From Synechococcaceae bacterium WB9_2_112 (GTDB lineage: Bacteria; Cyanobacteriota; Cyanobacteriia; PCC-6307; Cyanobiaceae): 54,059 nt of DNA. Both the position numbers and the translations under genes were made by a program. The notes under the pieces were generated by a model, which worked only from the letters and a program-made list of their open reading frames with translations, was not told the DNA's origin and searched no databases. The stretch covers positions 1 to 54,059 of the forward strand of contig RGUW01000003.1 in the NCBI GenBank assembly GCA_010027605.1. The letters run 5' to 3'. Positions 27,790-38,142 of the stretch are shown here, one piece after another (within the stretch, counting starts at the first letter, position 1; each line of letters begins with the position of its first letter).

Positions 27790-28593
27790 ATGACCACCAA
27801 TCCCTATGCCCAGGAGACTCTCTCCACGTTGCTGGCGGGCAAGGTGGCGATCGTCACCGGTGGCAACAGCGGCATCGGCAGGTCGATCGTTGAATGCCTG
27901 GCGCAGCTGGGAGCCAAGGTGGTGATCGATTACCGCTCCCACCCTGAAGCCACCGAGGAGATCGAGAAGGAGATCGGCAGCTATGGCGGCAGCAGCTTCG
28001 GGGTGCAGGCCGATGTCTCGAAGCTGGATGACCTGCAGCGTCTGGTCGATACGGCCGTGAGCCGCTACGGACGCCTTGATGTGATGGTCAATAACGCCGG
28101 AATCGAGACCCGCACCTCGATTCTCGACACCACCCCCGACGACTACGACAAGGTCCTGGATGTCAACCTGCGGGGTGTGTTCTTTGCTACGCAGTTTGCG
28201 GCCAAGCAGATGATCGCCCAGGGCGGCGGAGGTCGCATCATCAATATCTCCTCGGTGCATGAAGACTGGCCAATGCCCAATAACACCCCGTACTGCTGCG
28301 CCAAGGGCGGTGTGCGCATGATGACGCGAACCGCAGCCCTCGAACTCGCACCCCACGGCATCACCGTGGTCAACGTGGGACCTGGAGCCGTTGCCACACC
28401 GATCAACGATTCGACCATGAACAATCCTGAGCTGCTGGCCAAGCTCAATGCAGCCATACCGCTGGGGCGGATGGCCCAGCCCGAGGAGATTGCCCGTGTG
28501 GTCGGCTTCCTCGCCAGCGATGCGGCCAGTTACATCACGGCGACCACGATCTTTGCCGATGGCGGCATCATGCAGAGCAGCCCGGGGCTGTGA
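27790..28593 (+). CDS. SDR-family oxidoreductase (glucose 1-dehydrogenase-like)
   Basis: GKVAIVTGGNSGIGRSIVECLAQLGAKVVI; VNNAGI; YCCAKGG; YITATTIFADGGIM. Confidence 0.93.
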   Translation: MTTNPYAQETLSTLLAGKVAIVTGGNSGIGRSIVECLAQLGAKVVIDYRSHPEATEEIEKEIGSYGGSSFGVQADVSKLDDLQRLVDTAVSRYGRLDVMVNNAGIETRTSILDTTPDDYDKVLDVNLRGVFFATQFAAKQMIAQGGGGRIINISSVHEDWPMPNNTPYCCAKGGVRMMTRTAALELAPHGITVVNVGPGAVATPINDSTMNNPELLAKLNAAIPLGRMAQPEEIARVVGFLASDAASYITATTIFADGGIMQSSPGL

Positions 28594-28598
28594 TCGCC

Positions 28599-29102
28599 AT
28601 GGCCACAGAGGAATTTGTCCCCCTGTCCCGTCTTGAAGCCGAACTCGGCATCAGCCGGGTTGATCTGTTGCTGTTGATCCGTCGCCTTGGCCTGGAGCCG
28701 ATCCGTCGGGGCATGCGCACGTTCCTGAGCAGTCAGGATGCCGCCATGCTGGTGAGCCGCATCGCCGGAGAGGGCACCGAATCGGTGGCGGCTGAACTGG
28801 TGCTGGAGGAGTCTCCGGTCAGTCAGCTGCCGGTTCCGATCGAGCCGCAGTGGTTCAAGGCGGATCTCTATGCCGACCTGCGGCTGTTTCGCGAACGCCT
28901 GGAGATTCTTGAGCGCCTGGTGCGCACCGGGATTGAGATCGACAGCCGGGAGCTGGCCGATCTGTTGCAGCTCAAACGTCTACCTTCCGTGGAGCAGCAG
29001 GGGGATGCCGCCTTCTTTGATCGTCTGGGGCTGCGGTTCTGGCGGCGCAACAGAGCCGGTCAGCGTCTCAGCTGGAGGGTGACAGCCAGCTCGGAACCAT
29101 GA
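28599..29102 (+). CDS. Small protein with HTH-like N-terminus
   Basis: SRLEAELGISRVDLLLLIRRLGLEPIRRGMRTFLSSQDAAML resembles a MerR-like HTH; 168 aa. Confidence 0.5.
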   Translation: MATEEFVPLSRLEAELGISRVDLLLLIRRLGLEPIRRGMRTFLSSQDAAMLVSRIAGEGTESVAAELVLEESPVSQLPVPIEPQWFKADLYADLRLFRERLEILERLVRTGIEIDSRELADLLQLKRLPSVEQQGDAAFFDRLGLRFWRRNRAGQRLSWRVTASSEP

Positions 29103-29191: not shown

Positions 29192-30616
29192 GTGATTGTC
29201 AGTTGGTCTGACCTGTCGGTCCTGGCCGTCGTCCCGGCCTTGCTGGCGCAGACTTCTGAGCCTGGCGAAGCTGTTCTGGGCTCGGTGTTGCAGTCTCCCC
29301 AGACTCTGACGCTGGCCAGCTTGCCAGTGCAGCTTGCGGCCATCGGTCTGGTGCTGGTGATCAGCATCGTGGTCGATCGCTATGCCCTGCGCATTGGCGT
29401 GCCTGGGGCGTTGGCGCTGTTTGGTGCCGGGGTGGTCATCCAGCCGGTCTCGGGGTCGAGCTTTGATCACAAGGGCTTTGAAAGCCTGCACGTGATCGCC
29501 TTGTGCCTGTTGCTGTTCTACAGCGGTGTCAAGCTGTGCCGCCGGTATTTCAAGCGTCAGGACTATCTGATCCCATCGCTGCTGTTGTCGGTTCTGGGTG
29601 TGCTCATGGTGATTGTGATCGGTGCCGGCGTGATGTATTTCGCCCTCGGATCGATCGAGGCTCGCTTCAGCACAAGCTCCCAGCCGCTGTTGATCGCGAT
29701 GGCCATGTCGTATTGCATCGCCCCGTTGGATTGGGGCTCCTTCAGTTTTCTCGTCAAGCGGGTCAGGCGCTTCAGTGACCATGTCTCCGGAGTGCTGGAG
29801 TTTGAGACAGCCATCAGTGCTGCGATGACCCTTATCCTTGGCGATGCTCTGTTTGAGTTCTTCACCAACCAGGGGACCTCCACCTTGCTCTCGCGTGCTG
29901 TCAACATCTTTGTGGGCAGCATCTCCGAGGGTATCGTCGTCGGCGCTGTACTGGGCTATCTCCTCTCTGTGGCGATCAAGCGGTTTGCGCTGGAGCGCTC
30001 CCAGTCGATCGATCTGGCGATCGGATTCGTGATGATCGGTTACGGCTTCAATTCCTGGCTTGGCCAGGGTGGGCTGGTCTGCAGTCTGGTGATGGGACTG
30101 GTGGTGAGTGTCATGCTCTCCAACGAGGAAAGCAAGGATGAAAAAGAGATGCTGTCTGTTCAGCTTGAGTCGATCAACATTGCCTGCGAATCGCTGATTT
30201 TCTTCATGGCGGGTCTGGCGGTTGACCTGAGGCATGGCTTCCTTGCCTCACTGCTGGCTGGCATCGTGCTTGTTGCTGTGGTGTGGGTCCTGAGGCCCAT
30301 CACCGTGGCACTGTTTTTCCGTGGTTCCAACTTTCTCAATACTGGTGAGCAGCGCTTCCTGTCCTTCTGGGCACCCAAGGGAGCCATTTCCATGGCCCTG
30401 GCGATCACCATTCCCGACCTGATTGAAAAAAGCGGCATCCCCTACAGCCAGGTCATCAATCCAGTGTCTGAATCGTTCGTGATCGATTCGGTGTGTTTTG
30501 GGGTGGTGATTTCCATGCTGATCAAGAGTCTGATTCTCCCTTCCCTGCACCAATGGCTGGTGGTTGAGGTCAGTGACGCTCCAGTGGACGTGATTTCGGC
30601 TGGACCCTCGTCTTAG
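29192..30616 (+). CDS. CPA1-type cation:proton antiporter
   Basis: GTG start; multi-TM; LEFETAISAAMTLILGDALFEF; FWAPKGAISMALAITIPDL. Confidence 0.82.
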   Translation: MIVSWSDLSVLAVVPALLAQTSEPGEAVLGSVLQSPQTLTLASLPVQLAAIGLVLVISIVVDRYALRIGVPGALALFGAGVVIQPVSGSSFDHKGFESLHVIALCLLLFYSGVKLCRRYFKRQDYLIPSLLLSVLGVLMVIVIGAGVMYFALGSIEARFSTSSQPLLIAMAMSYCIAPLDWGSFSFLVKRVRRFSDHVSGVLEFETAISAAMTLILGDALFEFFTNQGTSTLLSRAVNIFVGSISEGIVVGAVLGYLLSVAIKRFALERSQSIDLAIGFVMIGYGFNSWLGQGGLVCSLVMGLVVSVMLSNEESKDEKEMLSVQLESINIACESLIFFMAGLAVDLRHGFLASLLAGIVLVAVVWVLRPITVALFFRGSNFLNTGEQRFLSFWAPKGAISMALAITIPDLIEKSGIPYSQVINPVSESFVIDSVCFGVVISMLIKSLILPSLHQWLVVEVSDAPVDVISAGPSS

Positions 30617-32732
30617 ACGTCGGCGTGCGCATTGCCATCAGGTTGTTGAGTTCGGCAAGCAGCAGGGGAATGTCAGCCAGCAGCACCGTCTGAAGCGGGG
30701 CGATCCATCCTGCTGCCGTCGCCAGCGACGTCACGAGCTGGCTCGCTCCCAGCAGACCAAGATTCTGGTTGCAGGCGTGGGTCATGCTGCGGCTGATTCG
30801 GATCAGTCGCGGCAACCACAGGGCATCAGCGCCGAGTGACAGATCGCAGATCGACGACAGATAGCGGCTGTCGTCATCCACATCCAGACCAATCGACACG
30901 TCGGCCTGGGCCAGTGCTGGCAGATCATGCAACACGTAGCCGACGAAGCCGACCGCTCCTTGCTGCTGCAACTGCTGGACCAGTTCGAGACGTTCGCTTG
31001 CCGTGCACGAGCCGTGTTGATGCTCGGGACTGATCCCCAGTTCGGTCGCGATCTCCCGCAGATTCTCCACCGGCTCACTGGCAATGAGATGGAGGGTGAT
31101 GCCCATGTTCCTGAGCAGCCCGCAGGTCTCGAGCCAATGGCCGTCGGGTTCGCGGATCAGTTCGACGCGGCCGAGCAGCTCGTCACCCTGCCAGACCTCC
31201 AGAGGCAGAAAGTGGGGATGGTGCGGCGCCGGTGCATCGCTTCTTGACTGGCGAAGGGTCCAGCAGCGACCGTCTTCGGCGTCGATGCGCCAGCCCTCGA
31301 ACAGGTCGTCGATGATGACGTTGCTGACGGCAACGGGATCGGCAACCTGCTGGAGTTGTTGTGACCAGATCACCGCGCCATCCTTGCCGCAGAGCCAACG
31401 CTGTGTTCCGGCCAGCAGTTGCACCAGGGACCCCGACCGCGCAGTGCTGCTGGTGTCGATCCGTTCGCACACCTGGATGCCGCCGATGCGATCAAGGCAG
31501 CTGCGGCTGATCACCAGATGGCGGATCGTGCCCAGGGTCTCGATCGCCTGGGGATGACGCACCCGCAGCTTGTGCAGATTCAGATCGGCAATGGCCGTGA
31601 TCTGGGCTGCCAGCTTGTGGCTTTCCCAGTCACTGACCGGGTTGAACTGGAAAGCCGCAAGTGAGCGCTCCACCGCACCCTGGGCCAGGAACACCCCACC
31701 GAGGCCCAGCAGCAGCGGGGGCATCACCCGCCGGTACGACTGGATCCAGCGTTCGGCGGCGCTGGGGTCGGGTTCGGGACGCTGGTGATGCTCGCGAAGC
31801 AGGTCGTAGGCCGGGTCGGAGCGGATGCAGCGTTCGATGCTTGCCGTGGCTTCGCCACTGATCACCAGCGCGCCCGGGAGGATCGCATCACCGGCTGCAA
31901 CCGCCTGCGGACGCCAGTCACCATCGACGAGACGGTTGATGATCACCAGCTTGCCGCTGGTCACTCTGGCTGAGAGAAAGCAGTGCTGACGCCGCCGCAG
32001 CGTGATGGTCATGCCAACGGTCGCCTCATGCAGTGGCAGGCGCTGCAGGGCGCCGTCGGGACTCAGGCATTCCAGGTTGACGGCGTCTCCGAGACGATCG
32101 AGGAGATGGTCGCTGTCAAGCAGCAGATCGTCGCGGTCCACGGCGTTCTGGGTCGCCTCGACCGCATCACCGATTGCCAGGTCGACCAGGGCTTCGGCTG
32201 CCAGGCCTCGACTCACCAGCACTCCCGAAAAACTCAGCTCCAGCGTCTCAACGGTGAGTTTGCGCTTTCTGAGCTGATGGATCACCTCACGGGTCAGAGG
32301 CCATAGCAGTAGCAACGTGGCACCGCTCATCACAAGGCTGGGGAGCGCCACCAGACCTTCAAGCGCGAGCAGCCCTGCGCAGACACCGCCATGGAGAAGG
32401 GTCTTCTGCACCTTCCGGCCCGAGAAGGGTGGGTTGGGCACAGTCAGCAGCGACTCCTCCAGGGGCGTCATCTGAAGGGCCAGCACCAGCAGGTTGATGA
32501 CTTCCTCGCGTCGGTGCTGGGGGTAGTCGATGCAGACCGAACCCGCTAGCGCATTGATGCGAAACCGCGACAGCCAGTGACAGCTGGTCAGGATCAAGCG
32601 GCAGTGATGGCGCAGCAGGGGCGATGCGATCAGCTCGGGCTGACGCACGCGCAGGCGACCGGGAAGATCGCTGACGATCTGCCAGCCCTCGCAGGCACTG
32701 CTGGATTGGGGTGTGCGCGTGGCGACGGCCAT
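30570..32732 (-). CDS. Pseudo-P-type ATPase (P1B-like, catalytic motifs lost)
   Basis: Architecture parallels the neighbouring P-type ATPase, e.g. GFVGYVLHDLPALAQADVSIGL vs AFVGDGINDSAALAYADVSVSF. The DKTGT position reads SRSCL. Confidence 0.8.
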   Translation of the reverse strand: MAVATRTPQSSSACEGWQIVSDLPGRLRVRQPELIASPLLRHHCRLILTSCHWLSRFRINALAGSVCIDYPQHRREEVINLLVLALQMTPLEESLLTVPNPPFSGRKVQKTLLHGGVCAGLLALEGLVALPSLVMSGATLLLLWPLTREVIHQLRKRKLTVETLELSFSGVLVSRGLAAEALVDLAIGDAVEATQNAVDRDDLLLDSDHLLDRLGDAVNLECLSPDGALQRLPLHEATVGMTITLRRRQHCFLSARVTSGKLVIINRLVDGDWRPQAVAAGDAILPGALVISGEATASIERCIRSDPAYDLLREHHQRPEPDPSAAERWIQSYRRVMPPLLLGLGGVFLAQGAVERSLAAFQFNPVSDWESHKLAAQITAIADLNLHKLRVRHPQAIETLGTIRHLVISRSCLDRIGGIQVCERIDTSSTARSGSLVQLLAGTQRWLCGKDGAVIWSQQLQQVADPVAVSNVIIDDLFEGWRIDAEDGRCWTLRQSRSDAPAPHHPHFLPLEVWQGDELLGRVELIREPDGHWLETCGLLRNMGITLHLIASEPVENLREIATELGISPEHQHGSCTASERLELVQQLQQQGAVGFVGYVLHDLPALAQADVSIGLDVDDDSRYLSSICDLSLGADALWLPRLIRISRSMTHACNQNLGLLGASQLVTSLATAAGWIAPLQTVLLADIPLLLAELNNLMAMRTPTSKTRVQPKSRPLERH

Positions 32733-32745
32733 GGTGCTAGGAGGA

Positions 32746-33300
32746 TCAACCCATGGTGCTGACTGCATCCATGAATGGACGCCTGAGCCACAGGGCCAGT
32801 TCCACCAGGGAGTAGGCCAACAGCACCACCAGGCTGCCGGGCGACAGCGGCAGCATCATGCCCACGATGCCCAGCAGCAGCAGTGCGCTGGCCGATGCCA
32901 GCAGGATCAGGCTGACGCCAGCACTGAGGCCGTTGAGCAGCCAGTGCAGTGGTGCCAGCAGGGTGCTCCCCGGTCCGCGCGTGTGGATCTGAATCGGGGC
33001 TGCTTCCGGGGGCTGGGCACCGCAGCCGTTCAGGGCCGCAAGCAGGGCCTGCACACCCTGACGCAAGGTCGATGGGGCCGTTTGTTGACCGTCCCGGTGA
33101 CCGTCACCAGGCGGTTGGTACCAGAGCACCACCGAGGTGGCGTTGCGGTTCAGCCGCCAGCGCAGGGGCAGGCCCTCCAGGTGATGCTGGAGCTGCTCCT
33201 GCAGCAGGGTCCATGAGAACGGGGTCGCCGAGTTGATCCGGTAGCGTTGCCGCATCGGACTCTTGTGGACCAGCTCAAGACAGCCGAGCAGGCTGGCCAT
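32746..33300 (-). CDS. HMA-like fold plus C-terminal TM hairpin protein
   Basis: RQRYRINSATPFSWTLLQEQLQHHLEGLPLRWRLNRNATSVVLWY, then SLILLASASALLLLGIVGMMLPLSPGSLVVLLAYSLVELALWL. Start 4 bp after the ATPase stop. Confidence 0.6.
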   Translation of the reverse strand: MASLLGCLELVHKSPMRQRYRINSATPFSWTLLQEQLQHHLEGLPLRWRLNRNATSVVLWYQPPGDGHRDGQQTAPSTLRQGVQALLAALNGCGAQPPEAAPIQIHTRGPGSTLLAPLHWLLNGLSAGVSLILLASASALLLLGIVGMMLPLSPGSLVVLLAYSLVELALWLRRPFMDAVSTMG

Positions 33301-33304
33301 GGGC

Positions 33305-35818
33305 TCAGGCCAGAAGTGCCACGTAGGTGCCGTCGCCGGAGACATGGCTCCACGACAGTCCTTCGGGATCGAGGCTGCGACTCCAGTTGGCCAGATCGCC
33401 ACGACGACGGCGCGCCGTGAGCGTCTGGTGCGTGGTGCCCAGTCGTGTTGCCAGGGCCTTCGCCGTCAGGGTTGTGGGAGCTTTGGCGTCGCCTGGGGTG
33501 TTGGTTTTCTCTGTGGCGTTTGCTGATGTCTTTGCTGGGGCGTTGCCGGAGGCGTCAGGCGTGGCAGTGGGTTGCGATGCGGGGGCGACCGATGGCAAGG
33601 GCGCGGGGGTGAAAGCCAGGGTGCGCATCGCATTGCCGGCAGCCACCAGGCAGGAGCCATTGTTGAGCAGCACAGCAGCGATCGGACTCACCGGGATGAA
33701 CGTGCCGATCACCAGAGCCGACAGGTTCGGAACGCCGACGATGCCGATGTTCTGACGCACCAGCGCGAAGGTGCGCCGGGCCAGATCCTGAGCCACCAGC
33801 AGACCGGAGACCTTGTCGTTGGTCAGCACGATGTCGGCCGTTTCACGGGCCAGATCGCTGCCGGAGGCAAAGGAAACCGACACGTCGGCATAGGCAAGAG
33901 CGGCCGAGTCATTGATGCCATCGCCCACGAAGGCAACCTTGTGACCTTGTTCGGCCAGCTGTTTCACCAGTTCGGCTTTCTGATCGGGAAGCGCTTCGGC
34001 ATGCACTTCGTGAGGTTCGAGACCCAGCTGGGCGGCGACGGCGTGAGCCACGCTGGCCACATCCCCGGTGAGCATGTGGGCCTGGATGCCTCGCCGGTGC
34101 AGTTCGGCCACCAGGTCACGGCTGTCGGGTCGCAGTTGATCAGCGGCATAGAACACGGCAGCCACGGTTCCGTCGACCGCCAGATAGACAGGCGTCGAGG
34201 CCTGCAGTGCCTGATCCGGGTGCAGCTCGGGTACAGCCAACCCCTCCTCGCGCAGGATCTTGGCGTTGCCGATCAGTACCGATTGACCGTCGATCACGGC
34301 GCAGACACCCTTGCCGATGCGGTAATCCCAGGCTTCGCAAGGCCCAGGATCGAGACCAAGGCCTTCGGCATGGGTCACGATCGCAGTGGCGATCGGATGG
34401 TTGAGCCCCTGCTCGGCACTGGTGGCCAGCCAGGTGAGTCGATGGAGGTCCAGGGTCGGGTGGAGCACATCGACATGCACCACCGAGGGATGACCCTGGG
34501 TCAGGGTGCCGGTCTTGTCGAACACGACCACATCGATGTCGACAAGTTGTTCGAGCGCCCGGCCGCTGCGAATCAACAGCCCCTGGGAGCCAGCCCGGGT
34601 CAGGGCCGCCATGATCGCAGTGGGAACCGAGACGCGCAGACCGGTGCCCAGATCGAACATCAGCAGTGAGGCCGCCTGGGCCACATTTCCGGCGCTCAGC
34701 AGCAGCGAGACGCCCGCCAGCATCAGCGTCGGCATCACGAACCGGTTGGCGATACGGGCGGCGAAGTTGCCGACCCGGGTGTCGTAGACCGGCGCAGCTT
34801 CGATCATTGCCGTGATCTGGCCGATGCGGGTCTCATCGCCCACGGCCTTGATCAGAACCGTCAGGGATCCTTCCAGCAGGATGAAGCCGGCCAGGACCTC
34901 GTCGCCGCTGCCGGCATGGCGAGGCACTGATTCACCGGTCAGCTTGACCACATCGAAACTGCCTTCGCCGCTCTCAATCACCCCATCGACCGGAATGCTG
35001 TCGCCGGGGAAGAACAGCACCCGGTCGCCCGCGATCAGCTCCGAGCTGGGCACGACCTCCTCGGAGCCGTCGGGACGCAGACGTCTTACATCAGCCTGCA
35101 GGCTGGCCAGCAGATCGGTGTTGGCTGAATGGGCGATGCGCTGGGTGGCGTCGCGCACGGCCTCGCCTCCCTCGATCATGCTGATCATCAGCGCGGGGCC
35201 CACCAGGAATCCTTCGAGGCTGTGCAGCGTGACAGCCAGAGCGTCGAGGAAGTCGACGTTGATCTTGCGTTCCTCACGCAGGCCGGCCCAGGCGCGTTTG
35301 AAGCTCAGGTGGGCCGAAACCAGAATGAAGCCGGCTACAGCCAGCGGTGGCAGGGCCAGGGGGCCGGCCAGCAGGGCCAGGGCCAATGAACTGACCGGCA
35401 GGATGATGCGTGACGGCACAAAGCTGTCATCGTCACCATCCTGCTCGGCGGCTGGCTTGGCGACGGCTTCTGGCTTCTCTGAGGCCAGCAGGACCGAGCT
35501 GTCGGGGAGGTCCCGAATCCATCGCTGCAGGGAGGCTTCATCGCAGGGTGCCAGCTCCGGGCTGGTGAACTGCACAACGCAGCTGCAGGCCAGGGGGTTC
35601 AGACGCACGTCCCGTACCTGCGGCAACCCAGCCAGATGGCGACGGAGCCCCTGCTGAACCGCTTCGCTGGGATGGAGCCGCAGCCGCAGCCGCAGGCCAC
35701 TGCGATGGACAACGGCCTCGACGGGGCTGTCGGCTGCAGTCAAAGGAACCAACCGGGGCCGTGGTCCGCCGCTGCGGCGGATGGTGCGGGCCCTGGAAGG
35801 CAACTCTTCAGCAAGCAC
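33305..35818 (-). CDS. Heavy-metal-type P-type ATPase without CPC motif, with C-terminal HTH-like tail
   Basis: LTGESVP, DKTGTLTQG, LNHPIATAI, MLTGD and VGDGINDSAALA are all intact; TM motif reads FDLGTGLRVSVPTAI. Confidence 0.93.
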   Translation of the reverse strand: MLAEELPSRARTIRRSGGPRPRLVPLTAADSPVEAVVHRSGLRLRLRLHPSEAVQQGLRRHLAGLPQVRDVRLNPLACSCVVQFTSPELAPCDEASLQRWIRDLPDSSVLLASEKPEAVAKPAAEQDGDDDSFVPSRIILPVSSLALALLAGPLALPPLAVAGFILVSAHLSFKRAWAGLREERKINVDFLDALAVTLHSLEGFLVGPALMISMIEGGEAVRDATQRIAHSANTDLLASLQADVRRLRPDGSEEVVPSSELIAGDRVLFFPGDSIPVDGVIESGEGSFDVVKLTGESVPRHAGSGDEVLAGFILLEGSLTVLIKAVGDETRIGQITAMIEAAPVYDTRVGNFAARIANRFVMPTLMLAGVSLLLSAGNVAQAASLLMFDLGTGLRVSVPTAIMAALTRAGSQGLLIRSGRALEQLVDIDVVVFDKTGTLTQGHPSVVHVDVLHPTLDLHRLTWLATSAEQGLNHPIATAIVTHAEGLGLDPGPCEAWDYRIGKGVCAVIDGQSVLIGNAKILREEGLAVPELHPDQALQASTPVYLAVDGTVAAVFYAADQLRPDSRDLVAELHRRGIQAHMLTGDVASVAHAVAAQLGLEPHEVHAEALPDQKAELVKQLAEQGHKVAFVGDGINDSAALAYADVSVSFASGSDLARETADIVLTNDKVSGLLVAQDLARRTFALVRQNIGIVGVPNLSALVIGTFIPVSPIAAVLLNNGSCLVAAGNAMRTLAFTPAPLPSVAPASQPTATPDASGNAPAKTSANATEKTNTPGDAKAPTTLTAKALATRLGTTHQTLTARRRRGDLANWSRSLDPEGLSWSHVSGDGTYVALLA

Positions 35819-35883: not shown

Positions 35884-36240
35884 TTATTCGACCGTGATGT
35901 CGGTCACGGTCACGGTCTTCTTGGAGCTGCGTGCCCCATTGGCCTTCTTGGTGGGAGCCGCCGCCTGCTGATCGGCGTCGTCGAGTTCGGTGCGGGCTTC
36001 GGCCACCAGATCTCCGAGCGACTCAACGGCTTCGGCAGCGTGGCGGGCCACCGAGCGGGCGGCTGTGCCGGCAGCGCCGGCCACGGTGACGCCCACCTTG
36101 ATGCCGCCCTTGGCCATCGAGCGACCCACATGGTTCATCGAATCGCCGAGTTGGGGATTACCCAGGCGTCGCACCATCGGTGCCAGAGCCACGAGCCCTG
36201 CACCCACGCCGAAGGCCAGGACGGTTTCGAGTTCAAACAC
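35884..36240 (-). CDS. DUF5132-like small membrane protein (copy 1)
   Basis: GTG start; VFELETVLAFGVGAGLVALAPMVRRLG...VGRSMAKGGIKVGVTVAGAAG; paralogous to 37849-38142. Confidence 0.65.
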   Translation of the reverse strand: MFELETVLAFGVGAGLVALAPMVRRLGNPQLGDSMNHVGRSMAKGGIKVGVTVAGAAGTAARSVARHAAEAVESLGDLVAEARTELDDADQQAAAPTKKANGARSSKKTVTVTDITVE

Positions 36241-36309: not shown

Positions 36310-37407
36310 TTGATCACCGAGCCCGCTGCGGCGCGACTGTTGCTGGTCTGTGCTGAGACCGCACCTCAGCGCCGCTGGCTGGTCGAGGAGGCCTTGGCTG
36401 AACTGCTTCACCAGGAGCGTGAGCGCTCCCCGCTGGTGATTGATCTGAGCGGGACGGCTGTGGCGCCTCCGGCACAGGGCTCGGCACCTGCTCTTGATTG
36501 GCATGCCTATGACGGCGAGAGCTGGGCTGAACAGATCTGGCAGCAGCTGCTGCCCGTGCTGCAGCCCTGGTGGGAGCTGCTCGATGGAGCATCTGCGGTC
36601 CCCGAACCTCCAGGTCGTCAGGAGATTCCAGGGCTCGACGCGGTCTTGCGCTGCCTGTTTCTGGCCGATCAATGCGCCGGTCAGAGCACCGCAGAGGCGC
36701 AGGAGATCCTCGTGATCCTGCCGCCGCTGGAGCAGGCGCTGCCGATGCTGCAGCTGGCCTGCCGCGGACCGGATCTGCTCGAGGGACTCTGGCGACCCCT
36801 GCTGCAGTGGTGGAGCCAGACCCGGCAGCGCCTGGCCCAGTTCGAGCTGGTGTTGCGGTTGCGGCTGCCTTCGGCCGACAGCCTGGAACTGGCGGACCGC
36901 TGGCGTGACTGCCTCGAGCGGCTGGCCGAGCGGCTCGATCCGGTGGCGGCGACGGCCGAGGTGCTGCTGGCTGTCGCGGCCGAGCCCGCAGATCTGGAGG
37001 GTCTGGCTGCCCGCTTGGCTGCCCTGCCCCTGTGTGGACTGCCGCGGCTACGGCTCTGGCTCGACGCCAATCTGCCGGATGGGGTTGCGGTTCAGGTGCA
37101 GCAGCAGCTGGCGATGCCCCTGTTGATCGGCTGCCGAGATCGGCAGGGTCTGGATTCGCAGGTCTGGTTGCGCCAGCCGCTGCCGCAGCAGACCGTGCTC
37201 TGGCAAGACCGGCAAGGGCTCAAGTGCTGCAGGCTCTATCTGCCAGGACTGCAGCGCGAGGGCCTGCAGGTGCAGCGGATCGAGCAGATCCTGCAGATCC
37301 GCAGTGCCGGGTTGCGCCTGGCGGTGCCAATGCCCCAGGGATGGTCTCAGCTGGCCTGTCGATCGGCTCGGATCGACTCCCCCTGGCTCGTGATCGACTT
37401 CGGCTGA
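36310..37407 (+). CDS. Hypothetical protein, possibly ArsA/Get3-like without P-loop
   Basis: ARLLLVCAETAPQRRWLVEEALAELL...SPLVIDLSG N-terminus; C-terminus LYLPGLQREGLQVQRIEQILQIRSAGLRLAVPMPQGWSQLACRSARIDSPWLVIDFG. Confidence 0.5.
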   Translation: MITEPAAARLLLVCAETAPQRRWLVEEALAELLHQERERSPLVIDLSGTAVAPPAQGSAPALDWHAYDGESWAEQIWQQLLPVLQPWWELLDGASAVPEPPGRQEIPGLDAVLRCLFLADQCAGQSTAEAQEILVILPPLEQALPMLQLACRGPDLLEGLWRPLLQWWSQTRQRLAQFELVLRLRLPSADSLELADRWRDCLERLAERLDPVAATAEVLLAVAAEPADLEGLAARLAALPLCGLPRLRLWLDANLPDGVAVQVQQQLAMPLLIGCRDRQGLDSQVWLRQPLPQQTVLWQDRQGLKCCRLYLPGLQREGLQVQRIEQILQIRSAGLRLAVPMPQGWSQLACRSARIDSPWLVIDFG

Positions 37408-37844
37408 TCGGAAGACGCATCGTCCGAGTCCTTGGGTTCGGGCCGCCAGCCCATCCACCACGCCAGCAGGAAGAAGGGTGTTCCGGGAAGAATCGGCAGC
37501 GCCCAGCCTGCGATTGCCAGTGCCATCAGCAGCTTGATGGTTCGCTGGTGCGACTGACGCAACAGCCTCTGCCATCCCGATGGCGGCGGTTCGGGCAGGT
37601 GGGCGATCGGCTGATCCAGAACGGCGGCCAGCCTGGGCAATGGATCCTCAAGGGGCCGGTCGATCGATCGGCTGGTGATCACCAGTCCGCGGCCCGAGGC
37701 GGCCTCACGCACGATTGCGTCAGGATGCTGGTGCTCGAGCAGCCAGAGCACGCTGCGCATCTGCTCAGGACTCAGCCGCTCACCAAAGTCGATGCGCAGC
37801 CTGTGGGGCAGCTGATGCCGCACCCGCAGCCGTGGAGTCTGCAA
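37347..37844 (-). CDS. HMA-like protein with C-terminal TM hairpin
   Basis: RLRVRHQLPHRLRIDFGERLSPEQMRSVLWLLEHQHPDAIVREAASGRGLVITS, then LLMALAIAGWALPILPGTPFFLLAWWMGW. TTG start inferred. Confidence 0.5.
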   Translation of the reverse strand: MQTPRLRVRHQLPHRLRIDFGERLSPEQMRSVLWLLEHQHPDAIVREAASGRGLVITSRSIDRPLEDPLPRLAAVLDQPIAHLPEPPPSGWQRLLRQSHQRTIKLLMALAIAGWALPILPGTPFFLLAWWMGWRPEPKDSDDASSDQPKSITSQGESIRADRQAS

Positions 37845-37848
37845 GGGC

Positions 37849-38142
37849 TCAGCCGTTCTTGGCCGCCTTGGCCTGCTCGAGATCGGCCTTGGCTTCGGCC
37901 AGGAGGTCGGTGAAGCTTTCCCCGGCCTCCGACAGTCCCTGGCCCACGCGGCGCACCAGACCTGAGGAGCGATCGGCGATGCAGATGCCAACCTTGAGTC
38001 CCTGCTTGGTCAGGGAGCGGCCGGCACCGCTGATGGCGTTGGTGATGCGGTGTTCACGGCCGGTGACCGAGGCCACCAGGGGGGCAACCGCAACGAGGGC
38101 GGCACCGACGCCCATGGCGATGAGGGCTTCGAGCTCAAACAT
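37849..38142 (-). CDS. DUF5132-like small membrane protein (copy 2)
   Basis: MFELEALIAMGVGAALVAVAPLVASVTGREHRITNAISGAGRSLTKQGLKVGICIADRSSG; aligns with copy 1 without gaps near the start. Confidence 0.7.
   Translation of the reverse strand: MFELEALIAMGVGAALVAVAPLVASVTGREHRITNAISGAGRSLTKQGLKVGICIADRSSGLVRRVGQGLSEAGESFTDLLAEAKADLEQAKAAKNG

Follow-up and report, generated by a model that had tools for sequence, protein, structure and literature searches.

A P-type ATPase paralog with lost catalytic motifs is conserved beside an active sister pump in Cyanobiaceae

Genes and features of the locus

The window (the whole stretch of 54,059 nucleotides from Synechococcaceae bacterium WB9_2_112 that was analyzed) encodes a catalytically intact P-type ATPase and, two genes away on the same strand, a relative in which most catalytic motifs have been replaced, here called the pseudo-ATPase. 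The genes of the surrounding cluster, and the features of the pseudo-ATPase gene, are as follows (+, forward strand; −, reverse strand):

28590–29102 (+): F6, a conserved protein of 170 aa and unknown family, adjoining the block in 20 loci
29192–30616 (+): cation/proton antiporter of the Na_H_Exchanger family
30570–32768 (−): pseudo-P-type ATPase of 732 aa, or of 720 aa if started at the ATG of 32732 (ORF, alignment, profile and model)
30924–30944 (−): VGYVLHD in place of VGDGIND, its last Asp (D615) invariant in the family (alignment)
31074–31088 (−): LIASE replacing MLTGD in the P domain (alignment)
31506–31508 (−): Ser421 codon at the position of the phosphorylated Asp (alignment to the active ATPase and 41 relatives)
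31638–31652 (−): FQFNP in membrane helix M4, specific to the pseudo-ATPase, where the active pump has MFDLG (alignment)
31914–31934 (−): RLVDGDW replacing KLTGES in the A domain, with an invariant Gly (alignment)
32469–32693 (−): N-terminal HMA-like domain with conserved R38 and R40 (Pfam, model, alignment)
32746–33300 (−): small HMA-like membrane protein (F1), encoded between the two ATPase genes (alignment, model)
33305–35818 (−): catalytically intact sister P1B-type ATPase, 837 aa, with DKTGT, TGES and GDGIND kept (motifs)
35884–36240 (−): DUF5132-like small membrane protein, core (Pfam, loci)
36330–37407 (+, opposite strand; start approximate): Get3d/ArsA-like protein without Walker A (F3) (profiles)
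37347–37991 (−): HMA-like and DUF454-like membrane protein (F7) (Pfam, profile)
37849–38142 (−): second DUF5132-like protein, core (Pfam, loci)
38214–39140 (+): protein with an HMA-like N-terminus and glycine-zipper repeats (F9) (sequence)
39116–39769 (−): beta-carbonic anhydrase (F4) (Pfam)

The pseudo-ATPase and antiporter genes are convergent, and their 3' ends overlap by 47 bases (30570–30616); a comparable overlap was present in locus L033. A DUF1345 membrane protein was also found around the pair, as was GDT1 in one group of genomes. The Pfam matches to DUF5132 were weak (E 0.004–0.06). The C-terminus of the active ATPase (33305–33450, −; also in L039) contains a helix-turn-helix-like stretch, LTAKALATRLGTTHQTLTARRRRGDLANWSRSLDPEGLSW, which is odd for a membrane pump.

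F1, F7, F9 and the two ATPases have an N-terminal motif in common, [H/S]-x4-R-x-R. When F1 and F7 were compared by profile to the N-terminus of the pseudo-ATPase, the probability was 78, which is suggestive only. The model of F1 follows the order strand–strand–helix–strand–strand–helix, the same as the modeled N-terminus of the pseudo-ATPase, and a fold search with F1 returned no significant match. The HMA-like N-terminal domain of the pseudo-ATPase, F1, F7 and F9 resembles the CoBaHMA domain linked to calcyanin. That domain, reportedly described by Gaschignard and colleagues in 2024, is HMA-like, carries conserved basic residues, and occurs both in P-type ATPases and together with glycine zippers; it is not known to have been reported there with a pseudo-ATPase as partner. 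An HMA-like N-terminus combined with glycine zippers was found in the window (38214–39140) and in loci L103–L107 and L042, and the F9 architecture is reminiscent of the calcyanin of intracellular carbonate formation.

An orthologue of F3 matched ArsA_HSP20 with an E-value of 6.6e-10, and a profile match to PDB entries 3igf and 8egk (E 5e-11) covered the last 80 residues. Walker A was absent from all 22 copies of F3 (the window and 21 related loci), so that the cluster holds, besides the pseudo-ATPase, another ATPase-like protein that lacks its ATP motif.

Motifs and predicted fold of the pseudo-ATPase

The open frame of the pseudo-ATPase runs for 732 codons from the first ATG without an internal stop, or for the roughly 720 counted by the sequence-only reading, which had started from the ATG at 32732. 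That reading had further proposed that every catalytic signature was replaced. Alignment to the active ATPase (33305–35818) confirmed a Ser (residue 421) for the phosphorylated Asp, with DKTGTLT changed to SRSCLDR, as well as the substitution of RLVDGDW for KLTGES and of LIASE for MLTGD; the HP of the N domain is missing too. The proposal went too far only at the GDGxND site, where the first Asp of GDGIND has gone and the second (D615) is kept. The sole DKTGT-coding site of the window (34506–34519, −) lies inside the active gene. No CPx or related metal motif was present in M4, which reads FQFNP in the pseudo-ATPase and FDLGTG in the active sister.

Searched as a single sequence, the pseudo-ATPase gave only weak, sub-cut-off Pfam matches (E1-E2_ATPase, E 0.00065; HMA_2, 0.007; hydrolase, 0.02). 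HMA_2 was matched at E<0.001 by 8 of its 41 relatives described below (best, 3.3e-6), and the window value was below gathering. Profile–profile comparison with the active pump by hhalign, on the other hand, gave a probability of 100 and an E-value of 1.5e-48 over 673 columns at 21% identity. Since this homology extends from end to end, the likeness is not due to chance, and the two proteins share a common descent.

The AlphaFold model, built from the 41 relatives, had a mean pLDDT of 78.6 and a pTM of 0.71. It matched P1B ATPases: the top fold matches were 4umw, 4umv and 4bbj, which are Zn and Cu P1B ATPases, the best being 4umw (E 1.4e-27; TM 0.60/0.71). In the model, Ser421 terminates a β-strand and the GYVLHD loop comes after another strand, a placement that fits the P domain of a P-type ATPase, and the predicted helices can be read as eight membrane spans, preceded by a ferredoxin-like domain at the N-terminus. 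Sequence homology and the modeled eight-helix, A/P/N-domain fold place the pseudo-ATPase by descent in the P1B group of the P-type ATPase superfamily, with the same general plan as ZntA, CopA and CadA. It differs from these proteins in lacking the phosphorylated Asp, TGES, HP, TGD and the CPx motif of M4, and in having mostly lost GDG. Judged from its sequence, it does not qualify as a P-type ATPase enzyme, having neither the phospho-Asp nor TGES nor the GDGxND Mg2+ site.

Conservation, selection and pairing with the active sister

A profile search of 401 genomes of the family (Cyanobiaceae), with positives taken at 1e-40, yielded 41 full-length relatives of the pseudo-ATPase in 28 genomes and seven genera. 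At most two candidates, the best, were scored per genome, so that copy numbers are lower bounds and short fragments may escape, as in genome G381. Position 421 was Ser in 32 relatives, Thr in nine and Asp in none; such confinement to two small hydroxyl residues is unlike the expectation under free drift. TGES was not aligned at its position in any of the 41 (a few had LTGDW), and the first Asp of the GDGxND site was lost in 31, with D615 kept in all. R38 and R40 of the N-terminus were likewise invariant, as was P377 of M4, and F375 was found in 40 of the 41. Conservation was lowest in the N domain (0.23) and highest in the HMA-like and membrane parts, the best conserved segments being the N-terminal HMA-like domain and M5–M6. 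Orthologs from the same genus, at 88, 61 and 55% identity, had identical motif replacements and, where the contigs reached, the same neighbors.

The dN/dS ratio between the window pseudo-ATPase and its 87% identical ortholog was 0.16 by NG86 and 0.11 by YN00. Twelve close pairs of pseudo-ATPases gave 0.05–0.24 (NG86) and 0.05–0.31 (YN00), far below 1, compared to 0.09–0.13 and 0.06–0.16, respectively, for seven pairs of active ATPases. (The saturated pair G108/G132, with a dS of 5.6, was left out.) The pseudo-ATPases are therefore under purifying selection, yet they evolve faster than the active copies, with a mean pairwise distance of 0.63 vs. 0.34. No ortholog retaining DKTGT was found in Cyanobiaceae, and no broken frame besides those at contig ends. 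Selection for a non-catalytic role, as the sequence-only reading had suggested, would account for the low dN/dS, the open frames and the absence of Asp from all 41 relatives, and is well supported by these data. The dN/dS values and intact frames rule out simple decay, and the presence of the gene in 28 genomes rules out an artefact of the assembly or of a single genome.

The order active ATPase, small membrane protein, pseudo-ATPase on one strand was found in 26 loci, with two cut by contig ends; contig breaks separate the genes of the block in genomes G003 and G004. A strict active-pump profile was positive in 30 of the 401 family genomes. Both genes were found in 28 genomes, the active gene only in two, and neither in 371. 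In the first of the two exceptions, G381, a fragment of the pseudo-ATPase is present at a contig end, and in the second, G396, the contig stops inside the small protein. The pseudo-ATPase thus occurs in 29 of the 30 active-positive genomes (G396 being unjudgeable), and none was scored at 1e-40 in the remaining 371. Fisher's test on 28/30 vs. 0/371 gave p = 4.5e-41 with genomes treated as independent of kinship. Near-complete genomes without either gene exist in genera g5, g6, g10, g19 and g59, all of which (five genera or more) also have members with both genes, indicating that the pair appears and disappears together.

Some pseudo-ATPase genes stand alone, apart from the active gene: beside a Na_Ca_ex-family antiporter (L093, L096, L099 and L100), beside a GDT1-family gene (L036 and L040), or in other settings. 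Each genome with such a solo copy also carries the active gene. A mirror-tree comparison gave a distance correlation of 0.91 between pseudo- and active ATPases and of 0.95 with another gene of the block. Since that gene correlates no worse, the value is explained by co-inheritance of the block, and we rejected it as proof of coevolution.

A class-wide search of 393 genomes with the pseudo-ATPase profile returned mostly active ATPases of the HMA_2 type that keep DKTGT. Some 40 loci were inspected, of which several were tandem pairs, and second copies outside the family had intact, decaying or lost motifs: intact save for GEGIND in L176–L179; DKTGT and GDSISD in G489 (L188); DQQ-TLT in G570 (L191); AKTGT, NGDL and GEGIDD in G643 (L189); and ARTGT in G538 (L198). 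Decay does happen among these distant relatives, as the Asp-to-Ala copy of G538 is split by an insertion; ≈1.5 kb of inserted DNA lies between its last helices (L198, 3207–5092). Na_Ca_ex-family genes were observed close to related, active ATPases in other cyanobacteria (L039, L177 and L179), and GDT1 beside others. A pan-cyanobacterial presence was rejected, as class- and phylum-wide searches placed the deep pseudo-ATPase clade in Cyanobiaceae only.

In a free tree with the motif columns removed, the Cyanobiaceae pseudo-ATPases formed one clade with full support, set apart from the Asp-to-Ala copies of G643 and G538. However, a tree joining this clade with G643, G538 and G489 had a slightly better likelihood (AU p 0.78). 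Since the joined tree fits no worse, one partner lineage and several independent losses are both compatible with the data, and the very long branches of the pseudo-ATPase tree call for caution in placing the Asp losses.

Possible roles of the pseudo-ATPase

On balance, we consider it probable, if barely so, that the pseudo-ATPase is a P1B-derived pseudoenzyme dedicated to the active ATPase two genes upstream, as its non-catalytic partner or regulator. The two proteins would share one membrane complex in which the active ATPase does all the ATP work. The pseudo-ATPase, unable to be phosphorylated, might be held in a fixed state, from which it could regulate the active pump or, by way of the conserved HMA-like and membrane domains, offer a site for a cation or a lipid. 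The solo copies apart from the active gene count against such a partnership, as does genome G348, where the two genes are on different contigs, and no P-type ATPase is known to require a paralogous subunit. More tentatively, the pump may be heteromeric, with one paralog hydrolyzing ATP and the dead paralog as an obligatory subunit, in which case the intact, partly degraded and dead second copies of other cyanobacteria would be stages of the same transition. P-type ATPases are usually viewed as self-sufficient pumps, and pseudoenzyme subunits are already known for kinases and ABC proteins. KdpFABC combines a P-type ATPase with other membrane subunits; there the partner, KdpA, is channel-like and not a dead paralog.

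The strong conservation of the membrane helices and of the new M4 signature FxFxP, together with the solo copies next to Na_Ca_ex- and GDT1-family antiporters, could also mean that the pseudo-ATPase acts alone and gives cations a passive or secondary route, in which the eight-helix domain is kept and the dead cytosolic head is a mere fixed frame. This seems unlikely, since the gene is present only in genomes with the active sister and usually inside its block. Quite unlikely, too, is a role as scaffold or as anchor in the membrane, by which the HMA-like and DUF5132 proteins of the cluster would be gathered into a membrane patch without direct control of the pump, given that a 732-aa ATPase fold makes an expensive scaffold. 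Several block proteins do share the [H/S]-x4-R-x-R motif, and the pump is accompanied by small membrane proteins of DUF5132-like type, in keeping with the PacL proteins that cluster P-ATPases in Mycobacterium (PMC9374683, PMC13043812). In the effluxosomes of PacL with CtpC or CtpG, as here, small membrane proteins are encoded with a P1B ATPase, which suggests that pump platforms might form; PacL proteins, however, are short DUF1490 proteins and not ATPase paralogs, and those of the window are DUF5132-like.

The fixed Ser or Thr at position 421 and the invariant D615 might be taken to indicate an unconventional activity, such as ATP binding or phosphorylation of residue 421. A precedent is ERMA/TMEM94, a P-type fold with degenerate DKTGT, TGES and GDGxND motifs (DKQGIL and GSSANL) that is nevertheless a reported Mg2+ transporter (PMC13322241). 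ERMA, however, is eukaryotic, has no active sister paired with it, and retains and requires the catalytic Asp. The pseudo-ATPase lacks Asp, TGES, HP, TGD and usually the Mg-binding Asp, and its N domain is the most variable part, making residual activity very unlikely. A decaying relic of a tandem duplication is scarcely credible: the faster evolution and the interrupted distant relative would fit it, but the low dN/dS, the 41 full-length frames in seven genera and the uniform change of Asp to Ser or Thr do not.

For the pump as a whole, Ca2+ or Mn2+ might be a likelier substrate than Cu or Zn, since a CPx motif is missing and divalent-cation/proton antiporters are encoded nearby.

Our literature search, with most subscription papers outside its reach, found no description of such an active/pseudo pair and no paper joining a P-type ATPase with a pseudoenzyme. 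What is new here is the family-wide conservation of the pseudo-ATPase, its near-strict pairing with the active sister, and the existence of partly degraded relatives. A pseudo-ATPase kept by selection beside a working twin suggests that the pump depends on a non-catalytic partner, and conserved motif-less paralogs of this kind would bring pseudoenzyme subunits into the P-type ATPase superfamily; with the partly degraded relatives at hand, the evolutionary route from pump to pseudo-pump can be tested. In a comparison of marine picocyanobacteria, a P-type ATPase cluster that is specific to the brackish clades VIII and 5.2 was listed with one or two copies (PMC7522525); this cluster may or may not correspond to the family in the window.
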